NCBI GenBank assembly: GCA_902781185.1 | Contig: CACZII010000002.1 | Location: 1-36,963 of the forward strand | Length of the DNA: 36,963 bases | Reading direction: 5' to 3' | DNA from: Fibrobacter succinogenes | GTDB taxonomy: Bacteria > Fibrobacterota > Fibrobacteria > Fibrobacterales > Fibrobacteraceae | Shown here: one piece after another, positions 9,966 through 18,811 of the stretch | Layout of the letters: each line of letters starts with the position of its first letter | Position numbering within the stretch: the first letter of the stretch is position 1 | Made by a program: the position numbers and the translations under genes | Notes under the pieces: generated by a model | The model's input: the letters and a program-made list of their open reading frames with translations, nothing else | What the model was told of the DNA's origin: nothing | Databases searched by the model: none

Positions 9966-10961
9966 ATGAAGAAAATTTCTCTTACGGGCATCAAGCCCAC
10001 CGGCACGCCGCATTTAGGCAACTACCTGGGCGCCATCCGCCCCGCTCTTGAACTTTCCAAGACCTACGATACGGTCTACTTTATCGCCGACTACCACGCT
10101 CTTACTACTGTGCAGAACGGTGCCGAGATGCGTGCGAACATCTACAAGATTGCGGCCACTTGGCTTGCGTTGGGTCTGAACCCTGAAGAGGGCCTGTTCT
10201 ACAAGCAGAGCGACATTCCCGAGATTTTCGAACTGAGCTGGGCCCTTAGCTGCTTTACGCCCAAGGGCTTCATGAACCGCGCCCACGCCTACAAGGATAA
10301 AGTGGCCAAGAATGAGGCCGCCGGTGAAGATCCGGACGCCAACGTGAACATGGGTCTTTACTGCTACCCGTGCCTCATGGACGCCGACATCCTCATGTTC
10401 AGCGCCGACATCGTGCCGGTCGGTAAAGACCAGAAGCAGCACGTGGAATTTGCCCGCGACATTGCCATCAAGTTCAACAAGCATTTCGGCGAAGACGTGT
10501 TCACCATCCCGGAACCTGTGTTCCAGGAAACCACAGGTATCATCCCCGGTCTTGACGGCCGCAAGATGAGCAAGTCTTACGACAACGTCATCGATATCTT
10601 CCTTGAGAGCAAGGCTCTCAAGAAGAAAATTGGCAAGATCGTTACGAACAGCCAGGGTATCGAGGAACCTAAGGATCCTGACTCCTGCAACGTGTTTAAG
10701 TTGTACAAACTCTTTGCTACTCCCGAACAGACCGATGCTTTGGCTGCCCGCTATCGTGCTGGCGGCATGGGCTGGGGCCACGCCAAGCAGGAACTTCAGA
10801 ACGTGCTGGAGGAACACCTAGGCGTTGCCCGCGAAAAGTACTTCTACCTACTCAGCCATACCGAAGAAATCGACAAGATTCTCGCCTACGGTAAGGAGAA
10901 GGCTCGCGTCAAGTCCAAAGCTATGATGGAAAAGGTTCGTTCCTTACTCGGGACTTATTAA
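9966..10961 (+). CDS. trpS: Tryptophanyl-tRNA synthetase
   Basis: A 331-residue class I aminoacyl-tRNA synthetase that charges tRNA-Trp. The N-terminus carries the GIKPTGTPHLGNYLGA segment (8-23) with the HIGH-type motif TPHLGN, and the signature loop is GRKMSKS (198-204). GLYCYPCLMDADILMF and VPVGKDQKQHVEFARDI are characteristic of TrpRS. The length is usual for the bacterial type I enzyme. Codon use is rich in C-ending codons, as in highly expressed genes. It appears monocistronic: no gene follows on the same strand for 367 bases. Confidence 0.97.
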   Translation: MKKISLTGIKPTGTPHLGNYLGAIRPALELSKTYDTVYFIADYHALTTVQNGAEMRANIYKIAATWLALGLNPEEGLFYKQSDIPEIFELSWALSCFTPKGFMNRAHAYKDKVAKNEAAGEDPDANVNMGLYCYPCLMDADILMFSADIVPVGKDQKQHVEFARDIAIKFNKHFGEDVFTIPEPVFQETTGIIPGLDGRKMSKSYDNVIDIFLESKALKKKIGKIVTNSQGIEEPKDPDSCNVFKLYKLFATPEQTDALAARYRAGGMGWGHAKQELQNVLEEHLGVAREKYFYLLSHTEEIDKILAYGKEKARVKSKAMMEKVRSLLGTY

Positions 10962-11017: not shown

Positions 11018-11039
11018 GTCCCTAGTTAATACTAGGGAC
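11018..11039. terminator. Perfect hairpin downstream of trpS, weak terminator candidate
   Basis: Two nine-base arms, GTCCCTAGT and ACTAGGGAC, flank a TAAT loop 57 bases after the trpS stop. On the plus strand only TTGTTGCT follows, a poor U-tract, so this may be a weak terminator for trpS, an mRNA-stabilising hairpin or a protein site. A smaller hairpin (CAGAGA/TCTCTG) lies at 10980-10995. Confidence 0.4.
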
Positions 11040-11064: not shown

Positions 11065-11168
11065 AAAACAAAAATCCCAGGCGACCTGAACACATAAAGA
11101 TTCGCAAGTCCGTTGCTGCTTTCGCCCTGGCGAATTGCCCGCAAATAATCATTGTTCAGGGCCTGGGA
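11065..11168 (-). ncRNA. Candidate 104-nt structured small RNA
   Basis: On the minus strand the 5' arm TCCCAGGC-CCTGAAC (11168-11154) pairs over 15 bp with the 3' arm GTTCAGG-TC-GCCTGGGA (11091-11075), leaving a two-base bulge. The 3' arm is followed by TTTTTGTTTT, an intrinsic terminator tail. Inside is a further hairpin with UUCGC and GCGAA arms. A promoter-like pair (TTGTCG at 11203-11198, TAAATT at 11180-11175, 17-base spacer) predicts transcription starting at the first base of the stem. CAGG and AGCAGC flank the apical loop, as in SRP RNA domain IV, but the segment between them is five bases rather than about ten, so I do not call it ffs. No usable reading frame is seen. Confidence 0.5.
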
Positions 11169-11174
11169 ACACGC

Positions 11175-11203
11175 AATTTAGCTTGTTTTTGACCGGACGA
11201 CAA
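11175..11203 (-). promoter_or_regulatory. Predicted promoter of the small RNA
   Basis: Minus-strand TTGTCG (11203-11198) and TAAATT (11180-11175) are separated by 17 bases. A start seven bases after the -10 box falls at 11168, where the RNA's terminal stem begins. Confidence 0.4.
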
Positions 11204-11328: not shown

Positions 11329-12876
11329 ATGTATAAGAAAAGTGTATTGGGCTTGGCGATTCTTGCAGCAGGACTTCTGGTCTGGTCTTGCGGTGATGGT
11401 TCTGTGGATTCGCTGACGGACAACGAGCTGATTATGATTAGCCGGTTCCCGAGTACAATCGATTACGACATGCTGGATAGCGTTGTTGAGGCATGCCGAA
11501 AGGATAATGCCTGCTGGGAAAAGGCTAAAAAGACAGGTGAAATCTACAAGGGCGACTATACTAAGGTTCTGCGTGATTCTTCGGGCAATATCATTTTCGT
11601 AGAGGGCGATTCCGCCTATGTCTGGAAAGACGGTAAGAAACTCCCGGTTTTTGATATTCCTACTAATAACTCTGGTGACGAAGACGACGATGAGTCCAGC
11701 AGTAGTACCGCTACTTCGGGCAGTTCCAGCAAGAGCAGCGGCAGTGGCTTTGAAGATGGTGGATATACGGATGACGGAACCGGCCAGGGCCCTGGTGGCG
11801 GGTCTGGCACAAGTGCGATACATGTAGATCGCAGTAGCAGTTCCAAGAAAACGGGAACTAGCAGTTCTGTGGATTTGTCCTTCTTGAGTAGTTCTTCGAA
11901 AGATAAAGTCGAACTGGATACAACTTCTACAGAGAATAAAAGCAGTAGTAGTAGCAAGGTTTCGTTGAGCGCCAACTCTGAATCCAGCGGAACAAGCGGA
12001 GGAAGTGTAAAGCCGATTGACTATAAATGTGGTCAGACTCCCATTGCGGGAACATGTAAGCCGGATAACGAATATCCGTTCCTTGGGGATGATGTTACCT
12101 ATACCTATACGCCTTCCGCAGGAACCTGCCAAAATGGAGATATTTTGTGGCGGGTTGGCGATGTGGATGTGGCCCCTCGTCAGCAGGAAGGGGGGATGAC
12201 GTTTACAGTGCTGTACGGAACGCTAGGGGATAAAACGCAAGTCACATTTACAATGGATTCGACTCGTGTGTCATGTGAAATGGTCATTCTTGAAACAGGG
12301 TGTAATTGCACGCTGAAGGGAAAAACAGTTGTTGACTGGCAGGGGAGCTCTCTTACCACCAGCGATAGCATATTTACATGGGTTGTTTCTGGTTGTGCGT
12401 CTGAAACAAATCCTAAAATAGATTCTTACTCTTGGACAATGGGCAATAAGACCGGTAATGCAAGGAAATTTGAGGTGAAGTTGGATCAAGCTGGTGTATA
12501 TACACCAGAAGTTGTCGTAACAGATAAGGGTGGCGTTGAAAGTAATCCCGTTTGTCCGTCGTTGAAAGTAAGGGTTCCTGTAAATGTCACTTCTTTGGGA
12601 ACAGAGTACACTATAGAAGACGGTCAGCAGGTCAAGTTGTCTGGAACAGCGGCTTCATCCGGTACAACATTGAAATGTAAAACGAACAGTGATTATATGC
12701 AGTCTAGTTGCACGATTGAAATGTCAGGAGTTGAAAATTTGTCAAAAAGCGTTAATAATTGTGGTAACTGGCTCGAATTCACATTTCCTGTGAGTAATTT
12801 TAGTAATGGTGTCGCAATCTTCACGATGCAAGGCTTTTCTGGAAATGACCCTGCAATTAGATGCACGGTCAATTAG
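11329..12876 (+). CDS. Serine-rich-linker lipoprotein with C-terminal Ig/PKD-like domains
   Basis: A 515-residue predicted lipoprotein. The start at ATG 11329 has GGAGGGG upstream and gives a type II signal peptide with lipobox LVWSC (C21). Residues about 30-110 form a small N-terminal domain with an ISRFPSTIDYDMLDSVVEAC segment. An acidic and serine-rich linker follows (about 118-225, with many runs of three to five serines separated by charged residues). The C-terminal part (about 226-515) has several cysteines and PKD-like strands such as KIDSYSWTMG and AGVYTPEVVVTDKGG. Poly-serine linkers of this kind are typical of Fibrobacter surface and secreted proteins. The later part is clearly more AT-rich than trpS. 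The ligand is unknown; a cell-surface binding role is likely. Confidence 0.8.
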   Translation: MYKKSVLGLAILAAGLLVWSCGDGSVDSLTDNELIMISRFPSTIDYDMLDSVVEACRKDNACWEKAKKTGEIYKGDYTKVLRDSSGNIIFVEGDSAYVWKDGKKLPVFDIPTNNSGDEDDDESSSSTATSGSSSKSSGSGFEDGGYTDDGTGQGPGGGSGTSAIHVDRSSSSKKTGTSSSVDLSFLSSSSKDKVELDTTSTENKSSSSSKVSLSANSESSGTSGGSVKPIDYKCGQTPIAGTCKPDNEYPFLGDDVTYTYTPSAGTCQNGDILWRVGDVDVAPRQQEGGMTFTVLYGTLGDKTQVTFTMDSTRVSCEMVILETGCNCTLKGKTVVDWQGSSLTTSDSIFTWVVSGCASETNPKIDSYSWTMGNKTGNARKFEVKLDQAGVYTPEVVVTDKGGVESNPVCPSLKVRVPVNVTSLGTEYTIEDGQQVKLSGTAASSGTTLKCKTNSDYMQSSCTIEMSGVENLSKSVNNCGNWLEFTFPVSNFSNGVAIFTMQGFSGNDPAIRCTVN

Positions 12877-13008: not shown

Positions 13009-13075
13009 TAACATAGTGTGTGCCGCTCTGTCGAGGGGACTTTGCGGGATTGGGGCACTGCCCAGGAGACTGTGT

Positions 13076-16000
13076 ATGTGGTTTCTTAAAAAAAGTTTAC
13101 TTGGACTAGCTCTGGTGGTCGGGGCTGTGTGTTCGTCGTTTGCGGCGGATGTTGCTCCGCTTTATTTTGAAGCTCTCGGTGAGCTTACCGAGGTGAATAA
13201 GGAGAACCATCAGGCATACTGGGATTCCCTAATGCGCTATAAGCTTTGGGGAACGACCGGTTTTGAAATCTATGCTCAGGGGCAACAATTCCATATAGAA
13301 GAAACTGTCGGCTATAATGGTACGGGTGTAGGAGGGGATCTTATTGTACATGTGGCTAATGTCCATATTGGCGGCCCTTTTACTATTGGAGGAGATGCGT
13401 ACTTAGGCGAGAATGGGCCTGGTTTTTATCAAATGCAATTTTTGAAAGGACCGTTTAGAGTTGATGGAAATGTGACTGTAAATGAGTGGCAACAAGGTAA
13501 CTTAAATTCCGATGAAACGAAATTTGAGGGGGATTATTGCCTTGGCGGAAATGTAGCTACGAAATCTAATATTGGTAACGATAATACCATAGCCTTGTGG
13601 AAAACTAAAATTACAGGAAATACCTATTTTGGTCCTTCTGAGTATGGAAACTGTCCTGAAAGTGTTCCCAAGACGATTGTGGGCATGGAAGTCCCGAAAC
13701 TTAAGGTTCCCGCTGGTACTCAGTGGGCTCCTGAGATAAACATGAATGCTGGCGGCGATTTTTACATTCATGTTCCCCCTAAAACAAGCTCTAACTCAGG
13801 AACCTTTGATAAATATATCTCGTCTATCAGCACGGGTAATCCTGCACATTGGAATTTGTTCATCGTGATGCCGCCTGGTGGGCGAAATACCCGAATTTTC
13901 CTTAAGGATGGCTTTAATTTTACAAATTCAGCAAGCAATGCCAAAATACAGGTTGTTTATGCTACAGACAACAGCCTTTTTAACGAGTCGACTGGTACAT
14001 GGGACTTGTCCAGGGTTTCAACCTTCAAATTCATTAAGGATAGTGAATATGAGGGAAACCTGTTGTTCTATACAGACAAAAAAATATATTGGAATTCTAT
14101 GGATAACCCTCATTTCCAGGGATCTTTCATATCGACAGATACAATTGAAGTGAAGCACAGCTACAATATTGCAGGTCAGTTAATCGCTAAGTACTTGAAG
14201 TTCTGGCCGCCATTTGCAGGGGATTTCCGTTATGTTCCGTTTGATCCCCCCTTGATTGGATTGGACGTGGCTGTGAACGCGAAGCTTTATGAACCGAATT
14301 TGCCACCACCGGGTTCAGCTGCAACAGCGTTGAACATACAATTGGATAAAACATCCAAGATGCCTATAACGTTTAAGTATTGCTATACATTCCCTGCGGC
14401 AGAGGGAGGAAACGCAGCCAGTGGTAGCCTTGATGCAGGCGTTGATGATGTAGATATGACGAACCATTCGGCAGATATGCCTCTTTGTAGCCAGGGAAAT
14501 TATAAAGAAGGCGTTATTCCTGCAGGGTCGTTGAAACCTGCGGATGATATAAATATTTGGATTGTTCATGACGGGGAAATTGAAAATGAGGAATCCTTCC
14601 AGTTTAAGATTTATGACCTGGAAGGTAGTGTGTTTAAAAACAATCGAACGGAATACACAATTCCGATGTTCATAACGGATATTGATGGTCTTCCAACGAA
14701 TAAGCCTCCTGTTGCAACTGGATATACAGCAGTAATTCATGAACATGCGAATGTCGGAACAAAGGTTTGTACTAGTGACTTGTCTGTATGCAAAGTGAGT
14801 GCGTCGGATCCCGATGATGGGGATGTGTTAACTTATTCGTTTGCTTCAAATTCAAATAACGTTGATGGAGCCTTTGCAATAAATTCCACCACTGGCGAAA
14901 TTACGCTGGCAAAGAAGATATTGAATTACGATCATATCGATACCTACCCGTTGTCTATAATTGTAACGGACGGCAATGGTGGCTCTGCTACAGTCAATGT
15001 AATTGTAAATGTCCTAGATGATAACGACAGACCTACTGCACAGCCCTTGAATGTTGCAATAGATGAAAATTCTCCGGAAAATACAAAGGTTGGCCAGATT
15101 CTCTATAGCGATCCAGAAAATACGCCAAGGAATAATATGACCTTTAAGATTGTGAACAAGAATGAGAATAAGGATACCGAAGCTGGTTTGACAGAAGCCT
15201 TTAAAATTGTAAATGGCATTGTCTTTGTCAATCAGGAATTTGTAAATAAGGAAACGAAGGATCTCTACCAGTTGTCGGTATTGGTTTGTGATGATGGAAA
15301 AACTCGTACATCGACCATGGATACTCTTTGTACGACAACTGCAGTGAATATAACGATTAACAATGTTCTTGAAGAACCCAATGCTTCAAATATCACCTGT
15401 AGTATTAAAGAAAATACAAAAACTTTTGTTGGATCTTGTAAGGTCTCAGGAACAGATTCAGATGGCAGTGCGATAAAATCTTTTGAACTTCGCTTTGATT
15501 CGGATCTGTTTGGAGTTAACAAAAGTACTGGAGCAATCACGGTGAAGCAAGCTCCAGATTATGAAGCCAGTAAACAGCATAAGATATATGTCAATCTCAA
15601 AGGCAGTGAAGGGACAAAGGGCGTGGAGGTTACGATCAACGTCATTGACGTAAACGAAGAACCTGTGGTCACTGTCACGGACGCCCACGTGATGGAAAAT
15701 TCTAGGGAAGCCACTGATGTGGTTGCGGTTATAGCCAGTGATGAAGAGGATGGTTATAATCTTGACTACAAGATTTTAAGCGGGTCCCGCGGAGGTGTTG
15801 CCGTCGATACGGCCGATTTGCCTTTTGTTATCGTGACGGGCGAAAATGGTGGTGATGATGGTATTATCAGAACTCGCGGAAACATTGACTACGAAAGCTT
15901 TGCCGATACGACCAAATCCTATTATGATATAACTGTTCAGGTATGTGACAAGGGAACCTTTGACGGAACCCCCAAGACTCCCAAATGTAAGGTTGAAAGC

Positions 16001-18811
16001 CTGCGTATCAAGGTGGACGATGGTCCGGAACCGCCAACTGTGACCGGCTTTGCCATTTCGGTTAGAGAAAACGCCCCGGAGGATTCTGTTTTGGGAACGG
16101 TTACGGGTACTGATCCTGAGGGCGGTGCCATTACCTACTCGTTTATTAGTGGTAATAAGGCATATTTCGCCATTGATGCCGATGGTACGGTGAAGGTTCT
16201 CAAGGGCGTAGATTTCGAATCTCTGCCTGCTGGGGCAAATCCCTTTATCTATGTAGCCAAGGGCCTGGATACCGATTTGCTGTCTGATACTGCCCTGGTC
16301 ACCATCACCATTTTGGATATCAACGAAGGTCCCAAGGTCGACGACGCTACCATGACAGTGCCGGAAAATAAGCCTGTGGGTACTACGGTGGATACGCTTG
16401 AACTGGAAGATCCGGATACGAAGCCGGAGAACAGGCAGAATAAGTTTGAGGCTGTTGGCGGAGACACGGCGTTCTTCTCCATTGATTCTATCACAGGAGA
16501 AATTAAGACCAAGGCTGTATTCGATTACGAAGCTAAGACTTCTTATAGCTTGGTGGTACGGGTCTATGACCAGGACGGTAACGAGGATACGGCTACTGTC
16601 ACCATCAAGATTGCCGATGAGAAGGAAAATTCCAATATCGTAATCACGTATGCAGTAACGGAGAGTGGCGCCCAAGATTGGGATTACCCCACGGGTACCA
16701 TCTATACCAACGAGAGTACGGTGAATCTCCAGTGGACTGCCGATGGCAAGCAGATGCCCGACACCTTGCTTACGAACCTCCACGAAGGCCTGAACCTGAT
16801 TACCCTGACTTACACGGACCCCACCAAGAACAAGGGCGTTACCGAGACCATTGGTATTTACGTGAGCACCCGTACCCCCGAGGTGACGGTGACAACGTCC
16901 GCTAAGCCCACGACTGGTGCAAACATCTATACCCTGGTAGAGACGGTTGACGAGTCCGATACGTCGGTCTATGTGAACAAGAAGAATAACGACATCGTGA
17001 TTACGATTAAGGACCCCGTTATTGACGCAACCTATTCAGATTCCACTTGTAACTATGAAACCTACAGCTTTACGGTGAATACGGAACTGGATCCTGTGAC
17101 CATACCTTCCAGCACCTACGATGTGGTGAATAAGGTGACTGCTGCAGCACCAGTGCTTAACAGCAGTCCGGCTTCTGAGGTGACTTATTCTCAGTATAAC
17201 AATGACCAGGTCAAGGTCTCGTATACCGAAAAGGTTGCTGGTGTGGATGTGACTATCTCCTATGTGACCGACAAGGACGGCAACGTGGAAAAGATTCCCG
17301 TGATGGGCGTAAATGGAAAGATTGATTCCATCGAGGTCATTACGGTGTCTTACCAGGTGAACGTGGGTGGCAAGGTGGTGAATGTGTCTTATGTGGCCGA
17401 TGCCATTACGGGGCAGGCCTTGAAAACCACTACGGTCAACAATAATAACTCTGGCTCCAATAGTGCATCCAATTCCGGATCTAACGGCGGTGCGAATGGC
17501 GGTTCGAACTCCAGCTCCAACGGCGGCAGTGGTTCAAACAGCGGTACGGGCAATTCCGCTCCGGTGTACATGTACTCCCTGACCGATGGCGAAGTGCTCT
17601 ATACCGTGACCTATGACTTCAAGACCAAGGCCAAGGGCATGGGCGAGACTACGGTGCAGGTGAGCTATACGGTTGACCAGAAGGGCAATGTGACTAAGGA
17701 TAAGGATGGTAACGTTGGCTATGAAGTAAGCTACACCTACGTAAACGAGATGGGCAACTCTTCTACCCAGTCTGTCTATATCGTAGTTGACCTGATTCCG
17801 CCCAAGGTAAAGATTGAGACCCCGCACAACGACGACGTGCTCCATTCCAACATGGTGGAGGTGAAGTGGTGCGTTGATTTGGGCGATGGTCTCGGATGCC
17901 AGCCCCAGGACAGCCTTACGGTTGAAGGCCTGCAGCCTGGCCAGGTGAACGAGATTGTCCGCTTCTACCGCGACAAGGCCGGTAACGAGGCTTCCGATGT
18001 GGTCTATGTCATGGCTAAGAATACCAAGGACGTGGACATTTCTGTGGAAAAGCCCGTGACGGTCATTACCAAGGATGACGTGGAGAAGTATTATGCCAGC
18101 AAGGAACCTGAAAATGGCCAGACCTTCTCCATATCTATCTACAATCCCCAGACCCAAAAGGAAATCGAGACTCAGGTGGGTGGCAAGTTCAAGAATAAGC
18201 CTGCAGCCCATGACTCCGTCTATCCTAACTTGCCTGGCCACTTGGGCCCCACTCTCGGAATTCAGGCCAAGGTTCCTGTAATCAACTCTGTTGATGGCCT
18301 TGCCACTCTGGACGACCTGGTGGGTAGCGACGGGCTGATCCTCTTGGATGCCGTTGATGCCGTGGGCAGCAGGAAGGTTACTGTAGATGAGTACGTAAAG
18401 CATTGTAATGCTGATTTCAGGGCCGAACTGGGCAGCGATATCAGCAAGGCGAACCTCTACGATACCAAGATGATTGCAAAGATCTGGGTCTATACTTCGC
18501 TGGGACAGTTCGTGGATTACTTCAGCTTCACCCAGGAACTGAACGATCCGAGCTATGCTAGCGATGCTGGCGTACTGAATATGTACTTCGAAATGAAGCC
18601 CGACAAGAATGGTGACCTGCATACGGAAAACGGACGCCTGTACGCTACCGGTGCCTACGTCTACAAGACGGAAATCACCATGAAGAGCGAACTGCGCTGC
18701 GACCTGCCGCCCTTCGATGATGCCTCTAACGCTAATAAGATGGGGCAGAAGAAGAGGGTCAAGGAAGACCTGCTGAAGTCCTTCGGGTACAAGCGCCCCA
18801 CGTCTAAGTAG
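13076..18811 (+). CDS. Giant secreted cadherin-repeat adhesin-like protein
   Basis: A 1911-residue exported protein. ATG 13076 follows AGGAGA by six bases and gives a signal peptide (MWFLKKSLLGLALVVGAVCSSFA). Residues about 25-425 form a beta-rich N-terminal region (GGDLIVHVANVHIGGPF, FQGSFISTDTIEVKHSYNI). About 430-535 resembles a Calx-beta domain. Six cadherin-like repeats follow (about 540-1180), with calcium-type linkers such as VLDDNDRP, VIDVNEEP and ILDINEGP and the S.TG.I motif (INSTTGEITL). Then come Ig-like segments, a Gly/Ser/Asn linker (about 1453-1495), another Ig-like unit (IPPKVKIETPHNDDVLHS) and a C-terminal domain ending FGYKRPTSK. It is probably a calcium-stiffened surface or secreted adhesin. 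Base composition changes sharply near 15640. Confidence 0.85.
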   Translation: MWFLKKSLLGLALVVGAVCSSFAADVAPLYFEALGELTEVNKENHQAYWDSLMRYKLWGTTGFEIYAQGQQFHIEETVGYNGTGVGGDLIVHVANVHIGGPFTIGGDAYLGENGPGFYQMQFLKGPFRVDGNVTVNEWQQGNLNSDETKFEGDYCLGGNVATKSNIGNDNTIALWKTKITGNTYFGPSEYGNCPESVPKTIVGMEVPKLKVPAGTQWAPEINMNAGGDFYIHVPPKTSSNSGTFDKYISSISTGNPAHWNLFIVMPPGGRNTRIFLKDGFNFTNSASNAKIQVVYATDNSLFNESTGTWDLSRVSTFKFIKDSEYEGNLLFYTDKKIYWNSMDNPHFQGSFISTDTIEVKHSYNIAGQLIAKYLKFWPPFAGDFRYVPFDPPLIGLDVAVNAKLYEPNLPPPGSAATALNIQLDKTSKMPITFKYCYTFPAAEGGNAASGSLDAGVDDVDMTNHSADMPLCSQGNYKEGVIPAGSLKPADDINIWIVHDGEIENEESFQFKIYDLEGSVFKNNRTEYTIPMFITDIDGLPTNKPPVATGYTAVIHEHANVGTKVCTSDLSVCKVSASDPDDGDVLTYSFASNSNNVDGAFAINSTTGEITLAKKILNYDHIDTYPLSIIVTDGNGGSATVNVIVNVLDDNDRPTAQPLNVAIDENSPENTKVGQILYSDPENTPRNNMTFKIVNKNENKDTEAGLTEAFKIVNGIVFVNQEFVNKETKDLYQLSVLVCDDGKTRTSTMDTLCTTTAVNITINNVLEEPNASNITCSIKENTKTFVGSCKVSGTDSDGSAIKSFELRFDSDLFGVNKSTGAITVKQAPDYEASKQHKIYVNLKGSEGTKGVEVTINVIDVNEEPVVTVTDAHVMENSREATDVVAVIASDEEDGYNLDYKILSGSRGGVAVDTADLPFVIVTGENGGDDGIIRTRGNIDYESFADTTKSYYDITVQVCDKGTFDGTPKTPKCKVESLRIKVDDGPEPPTVTGFAISVRENAPEDSVLGTVTGTDPEGGAITYSFISGNKAYFAIDADGTVKVLKGVDFESLPAGANPFIYVAKGLDTDLLSDTALVTITILDINEGPKVDDATMTVPENKPVGTTVDTLELEDPDTKPENRQNKFEAVGGDTAFFSIDSITGEIKTKAVFDYEAKTSYSLVVRVYDQDGNEDTATVTIKIADEKENSNIVITYAVTESGAQDWDYPTGTIYTNESTVNLQWTADGKQMPDTLLTNLHEGLNLITLTYTDPTKNKGVTETIGIYVSTRTPEVTVTTSAKPTTGANIYTLVETVDESDTSVYVNKKNNDIVITIKDPVIDATYSDSTCNYETYSFTVNTELDPVTIPSSTYDVVNKVTAAAPVLNSSPASEVTYSQYNNDQVKVSYTEKVAGVDVTISYVTDKDGNVEKIPVMGVNGKIDSIEVITVSYQVNVGGKVVNVSYVADAITGQALKTTTVNNNNSGSNSASNSGSNGGANGGSNSSSNGGSGSNSGTGNSAPVYMYSLTDGEVLYTVTYDFKTKAKGMGETTVQVSYTVDQKGNVTKDKDGNVGYEVSYTYVNEMGNSSTQSVYIVVDLIPPKVKIETPHNDDVLHSNMVEVKWCVDLGDGLGCQPQDSLTVEGLQPGQVNEIVRFYRDKAGNEASDVVYVMAKNTKDVDISVEKPVTVITKDDVEKYYASKEPENGQTFSISIYNPQTQKEIETQVGGKFKNKPAAHDSVYPNLPGHLGPTLGIQAKVPVINSVDGLATLDDLVGSDGLILLDAVDAVGSRKVTVDEYVKHCNADFRAELGSDISKANLYDTKMIAKIWVYTSLGQFVDYFSFTQELNDPSYASDAGVLNMYFEMKPDKNGDLHTENGRLYATGAYVYKTEITMKSELRCDLPPFDDASNANKMGQKKRVKEDLLKSFGYKRPTSK

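Follow-up and report, generated by a model that had tools for sequence, protein, structure and literature searches.

What kind of RNA, if any, is encoded on the minus strand between positions 11065 and 11168 of the window, by which we mean the whole 36,963-nucleotide stretch of Fibrobacter succinogenes DNA that was analysed? The initial annotation placed here a structured small RNA equipped with a promoter and a terminator of its own, a proposal that our results support, and remarked that its CAGG and AGCAGC motifs recall SRP RNA, an identity that it set aside on account of wrong spacing. The resemblance was well seen, while the objection does not hold. The covariance search against Rfam that had been suggested (cmscan) returned a match to RF00169 (Bacteria_small_SRP) on the minus strand at 11168–11072, which covers model positions 1–97 of 97 and, with a spacing short by two bases, scores 48.2 bits against a curated gathering threshold of 40. 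The odd spacing reflects the loss of an apical base pair throughout the lineage and does not speak against SRP RNA. It is near certain that the candidate small RNA is SRP RNA, a component of the machinery that brings newly made proteins to the cell membrane, and an unnamed candidate has thereby become an identified essential gene. By the Rfam bounds the RNA itself runs from 11168 to 11072; the end originally given, 11065, takes in the entire T-run of the terminator. We have very high confidence in the full description of the locus as ffs, a 4.5S-type SRP RNA gene with its own sigma-70-type promoter, an intrinsic terminator, putative Ffh and FtsY binding and a 2-bp tip, made up of the following parts:

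11198..11203, minus strand: −35 box TTGTCG, followed by a 17-nt spacer; read from the sequence, with TTG recurring in the genus and a weak consensus score
11175..11180, minus strand: −10 box TAAATT (TATATT in most relatives), conserved in both location and sequence ahead of the RNA among family members
11072..11168, minus strand: SRP RNA gene ffs, small bacterial type, from the full-length RF00169 match
11126..11130, minus strand: CCAGG, forming the 5' strand of the symmetric internal loop; invariant in alignment A1 (26 relatives)
11118..11125, minus strand: apical hairpin GC-GAAA-GC, a 2-bp stem with a GNRA tetraloop, from the 2-nt deletion in the cmscan alignment, the relatives and covariation
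11113..11117, minus strand: AGCAA, forming the 3' strand of the symmetric internal loop; invariant in alignment A1 (26 relatives)
11065..11074, minus strand: T-rich tail TTTTTGTTTT, forming an intrinsic terminator with the closing stem, from a terminator scan; the T-run is kept in relatives

Apart from the score, membership of the family is indicated by an extended single hairpin whose CAGG/AGCA symmetric loop adjoins the tip, as judged from the minimum-free-energy fold, 26 relatives and covariation, and by a GNRA tetraloop at the tip, which is GAAA in the window and GAAA or GAGA in relatives. The stem under the tetraloop has two base pairs in place of three: in the cmscan alignment two bases are absent at the tip, equivalent to one lost apical base pair, and this is the only real departure from the model. 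A 3-bp apical stem is a consensus feature of RF00169 that the curated threshold does not demand, and the shorter stem is no bar to membership, since Rfam-positive Treponema and large-type Dehalococcoidia RNAs have it. The window RNA scores 48 bits against RF00169, compared with 53–71 bits for members from the outer phylum. Within the whole assembly, which is 72% complete, the 11168–11072 locus is the sole RF00169 match. Other Rfam families were rejected as candidates, as SRP alone matched at E-values up to 1, and so were tRNA and tmRNA, none of which was found in the window.

The predicted structure is unusually stable. The 104 nucleotides from 11168 to 11065 on the minus strand fold at −43.4 kcal/mol, against −28.0 ± 3.4 kcal/mol for shuffled sequences (z = −4.5, with none of 200 shuffles as good), and the fold contains the elements originally drawn, a terminal stem interrupted by a 2-nt bulge and an internal stem, together with the apical hairpin, the tail TTTTTGTTTT standing straight after the stem. 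Conservation of the stem in relatives had been named in advance as a point on which the proposal could fail; the stem is kept, with compensatory changes. Among 17 distinct family sequences, 98.5% of the cells of a 32-pair structure hold standard pairs, and double-sided changes occur in 10 pairs against a shuffle mean of 4.0. The covariation score of this structure was reached by none of 500 shuffles, and sliding the register reduces pairing to 29–42%.

For the tip itself we compared 26 sequences from three families, where f1 denotes the family of the window, f2 a family in the same order, and f3, f4 and f5 families in the same class. The outer pair of the f1, f3 and f5 tips changes from G-C to A-U (GC/GC to AC/GU) in eight sequences, which share ancestry and may represent one event, and the inner pair is constant. 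This swap in sister families supports a predicted apical stem of two base pairs. When the apical 22-mer is folded alone the energy model does not form the drawn tip, which does form in the full RNA, so that the evidence for the 2-bp stem is the covariation of one pair together with the fold of the full-length RNA.

Upstream of the RNA lies the pair that had been read as a promoter with 17-base spacing, TTGTCG-17-TAAATT. It agrees with the sigma-70 consensus at 8 of 12 positions, which is why it is absent from the list produced by a mechanical scan. Nevertheless, of 39 family sequences taken from upstream of the RNA, most have a TATATT-like −10 box that ends six bases short of where the RNA begins, and TTG near −35 recurs in the genus of the window; because of this conservation, the predicted promoter is very probably right. 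Transcription would start from a sigma-70-type promoter belonging to the gene itself and would stop at the intrinsic terminator formed with the closing stem. In 12 relatives, a tblastn search with TrpS gave no hit closer to the RNA than about 2 kb, and the neighbourhood is therefore not conserved. In the window, trpS (9966–10961, plus strand) is followed by a perfect palindrome, GTCCCTAGTTAATACTAGGGAC, at 11018–11039, which has a poor T-run after it and is probably the trpS terminator. On the other side, a serine-rich, lipoprotein-like ORF at 11329–12876, which has no Pfam match, adjoins a 1931-aa ORF at 13016–18811 in which repeated cadherin-like motifs are visible by eye.

The distribution of the shortened tip was followed across the phylum, where RF00169 matches 104 of 151 genomes. 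A lineage model, R1, built from 17 family members, recovers many genomes of the family that RF00169 misses and finds the RNA in nearly all members; the altered tip accounts for the low scores and misses of standard SRP RNA searches in this lineage, where the Rfam model finds fewer RNAs than the lineage model. Of the 94 sampled f1 genomes, 88 carry the short tip CAGR-GC-GARA-GC-AGCA; an f2 genome (G092) has a short tip too, and ten f3 genomes and one f5 genome carry it with AC/GU (GC/GC in one case). The usual 10-nt form, in which three base pairs carry a GGAA loop, is seen in two f4 genomes and in all 30 outer-phylum loci that were read, and the lone pattern match in the outer phylum (G058) is a site with two mismatches that lies off the SRP RNA of that genome. 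This distribution over the families indicates that the shortening most likely arose inside the class of the window. In the remaining six f1 genomes, two of them more than 90% complete, and in one f2 genome, no match emerged even from a search restricted to this small set in which more candidates were scored, and draft gaps are the likely cause. Two genomes of the same genus, G017 and G117 (99% and 94% complete), yielded no SRP RNA by RF00169, the lineage model or the tip pattern. A further genome, G122, has three SRP RNA copies (L166 on C7, L062 and L063); the 97-nt sequence on C7 is identical to that of the window and the other two differ, which suggests that the assembly contains mixed strains or contamination.

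Short tips also occur in other phyla. A pattern scan of the collection, in which the flanks were fixed as CGCCAGG/AGCAACGG and tips starting with G were excluded, such that short tips elsewhere are undercounted, picked up the same 8-nt tip in records of Treponema (two) and of Chloroflexi/Dehalococcoidia (five), all Rfam-confirmed SRP RNAs. As it is seen in Treponema and Dehalococcoidia as well, the short tip is a small, recurrent structural variant that is not unique to Fibrobacteria. A literature search that covered few subscription papers found no title or abstract on Fibrobacter SRP RNA or on a 2-bp tip, which is not proof of novelty.

Does the shortened tip still serve the receptor? The genome of the window encodes both Ffh and FtsY (TIGR00959 and TIGR00064, over the NCBIfam cut-offs). 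When the alignment is anchored on the R of DTAGR in its FtsY, which we take to be E. coli R386, K, R, K and K stand at the positions equivalent to E. coli K399, R402, K405 and K406, and the lysine at 399 is shared by all 20 genomes in the comparison, whether short-tip or usual-tip. In E. coli these residues form a basic patch that faces the RNA, and recognition by FtsY involves mainly the GGAA loop and two adjacent base pairs (PMC11404819). In contrast to the identity, fold, covariation, promoter box and Ffh and FtsY genes, which come from the present analysis, the binding steps are taken over from established SRP biology. Ffh would bind the symmetric loop CCAGG/AGCAA, of which CCAGG is by homology the putative site for its M domain, and FtsY would be captured early at the tip and then relocate to the distal site, as described for the known system (PMC4737761, PMC5454536). 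In the lineage, the apical stem has gone from 3 to 2 bp, and the loop is GAAA in place of GGAA. Because the basic patch is kept, with K399 in short-tip and usual-tip genomes alike, comparison of the receptor sequences favours a mechanism unchanged in both capture and relocation, and since recognition depends mainly on the tetraloop and two adjacent base pairs, the shortened tip most likely functions as the usual one does.

Alternatively, the RNA could be an SRP RNA whose tip is not neutral, with altered recruitment of FtsY that is matched by changes in Ffh or FtsY. Such a scenario would fit a tip that is one base pair shorter and has GAAA for GGAA in several families, with the older form preserved in f4 of the same class. 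We consider it unlikely, given that genomes with either kind of tip share the FtsY lysine in contact with the tetraloop and that the shortened stem still has both of the base pairs that are reported to be recognised (PMC11404819). A broader version, in which the tip was shortened separately in Fibrobacteria, Dehalococcoidia and Treponema, alters FtsY capture and is compensated by the SRP GTPases, seems slightly less probable still. That the locus encodes a different regulatory sRNA merely resembling SRP RNA, the true one lying elsewhere, is highly improbable: the apical spacing is two bases under the Rfam consensus and a second copy could be missing from an assembly 72% complete, but the genome holds no second RF00169 match, near-complete relatives likewise have just one short-tip RNA, and the putative Ffh-binding loop is invariant. 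We retain the reading as SRP RNA with a tip that most likely still functions: the locus is an ordinary, essential gene of an already described kind with a small lineage-specific change at the tip. It offers a naturally occurring alteration, placed in one class, of an SRP RNA element that hardly varies otherwise, and this can be used to test how much of the tip is needed by the receptor.

Compared with known systems, the window RNA resembles RF00169 and 4.5S RNA in its length, in its one long hairpin with the CAGG...AGCA symmetric loop and a GNRA tip, in its full-model match over the curated threshold and in its occurrence in a genome that also encodes Ffh and FtsY, and it differs in an apical stem of 2 rather than 3 bp and in a GAAA rather than a GGAA tetraloop. 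The large SRP RNAs of Dehalococcoidia and the small ones of goat-gut Treponema share with it an 8-nt, 2-bp apical hairpin (CCGRAAGG, ACGGAAGT), whereas they belong to distant phyla, their tetraloop is mostly GGAA, and those of Dehalococcoidia are of the large type of about 260 nt (RF01854). The chloroplast SRP RNA of Physcomitrella likewise has an atypical tip, with a loop grown to about 10 nt and weaker binding of SRP54 (PMC5115805), whereas in the window RNA the stem is shortened and the GNRA loop is kept.
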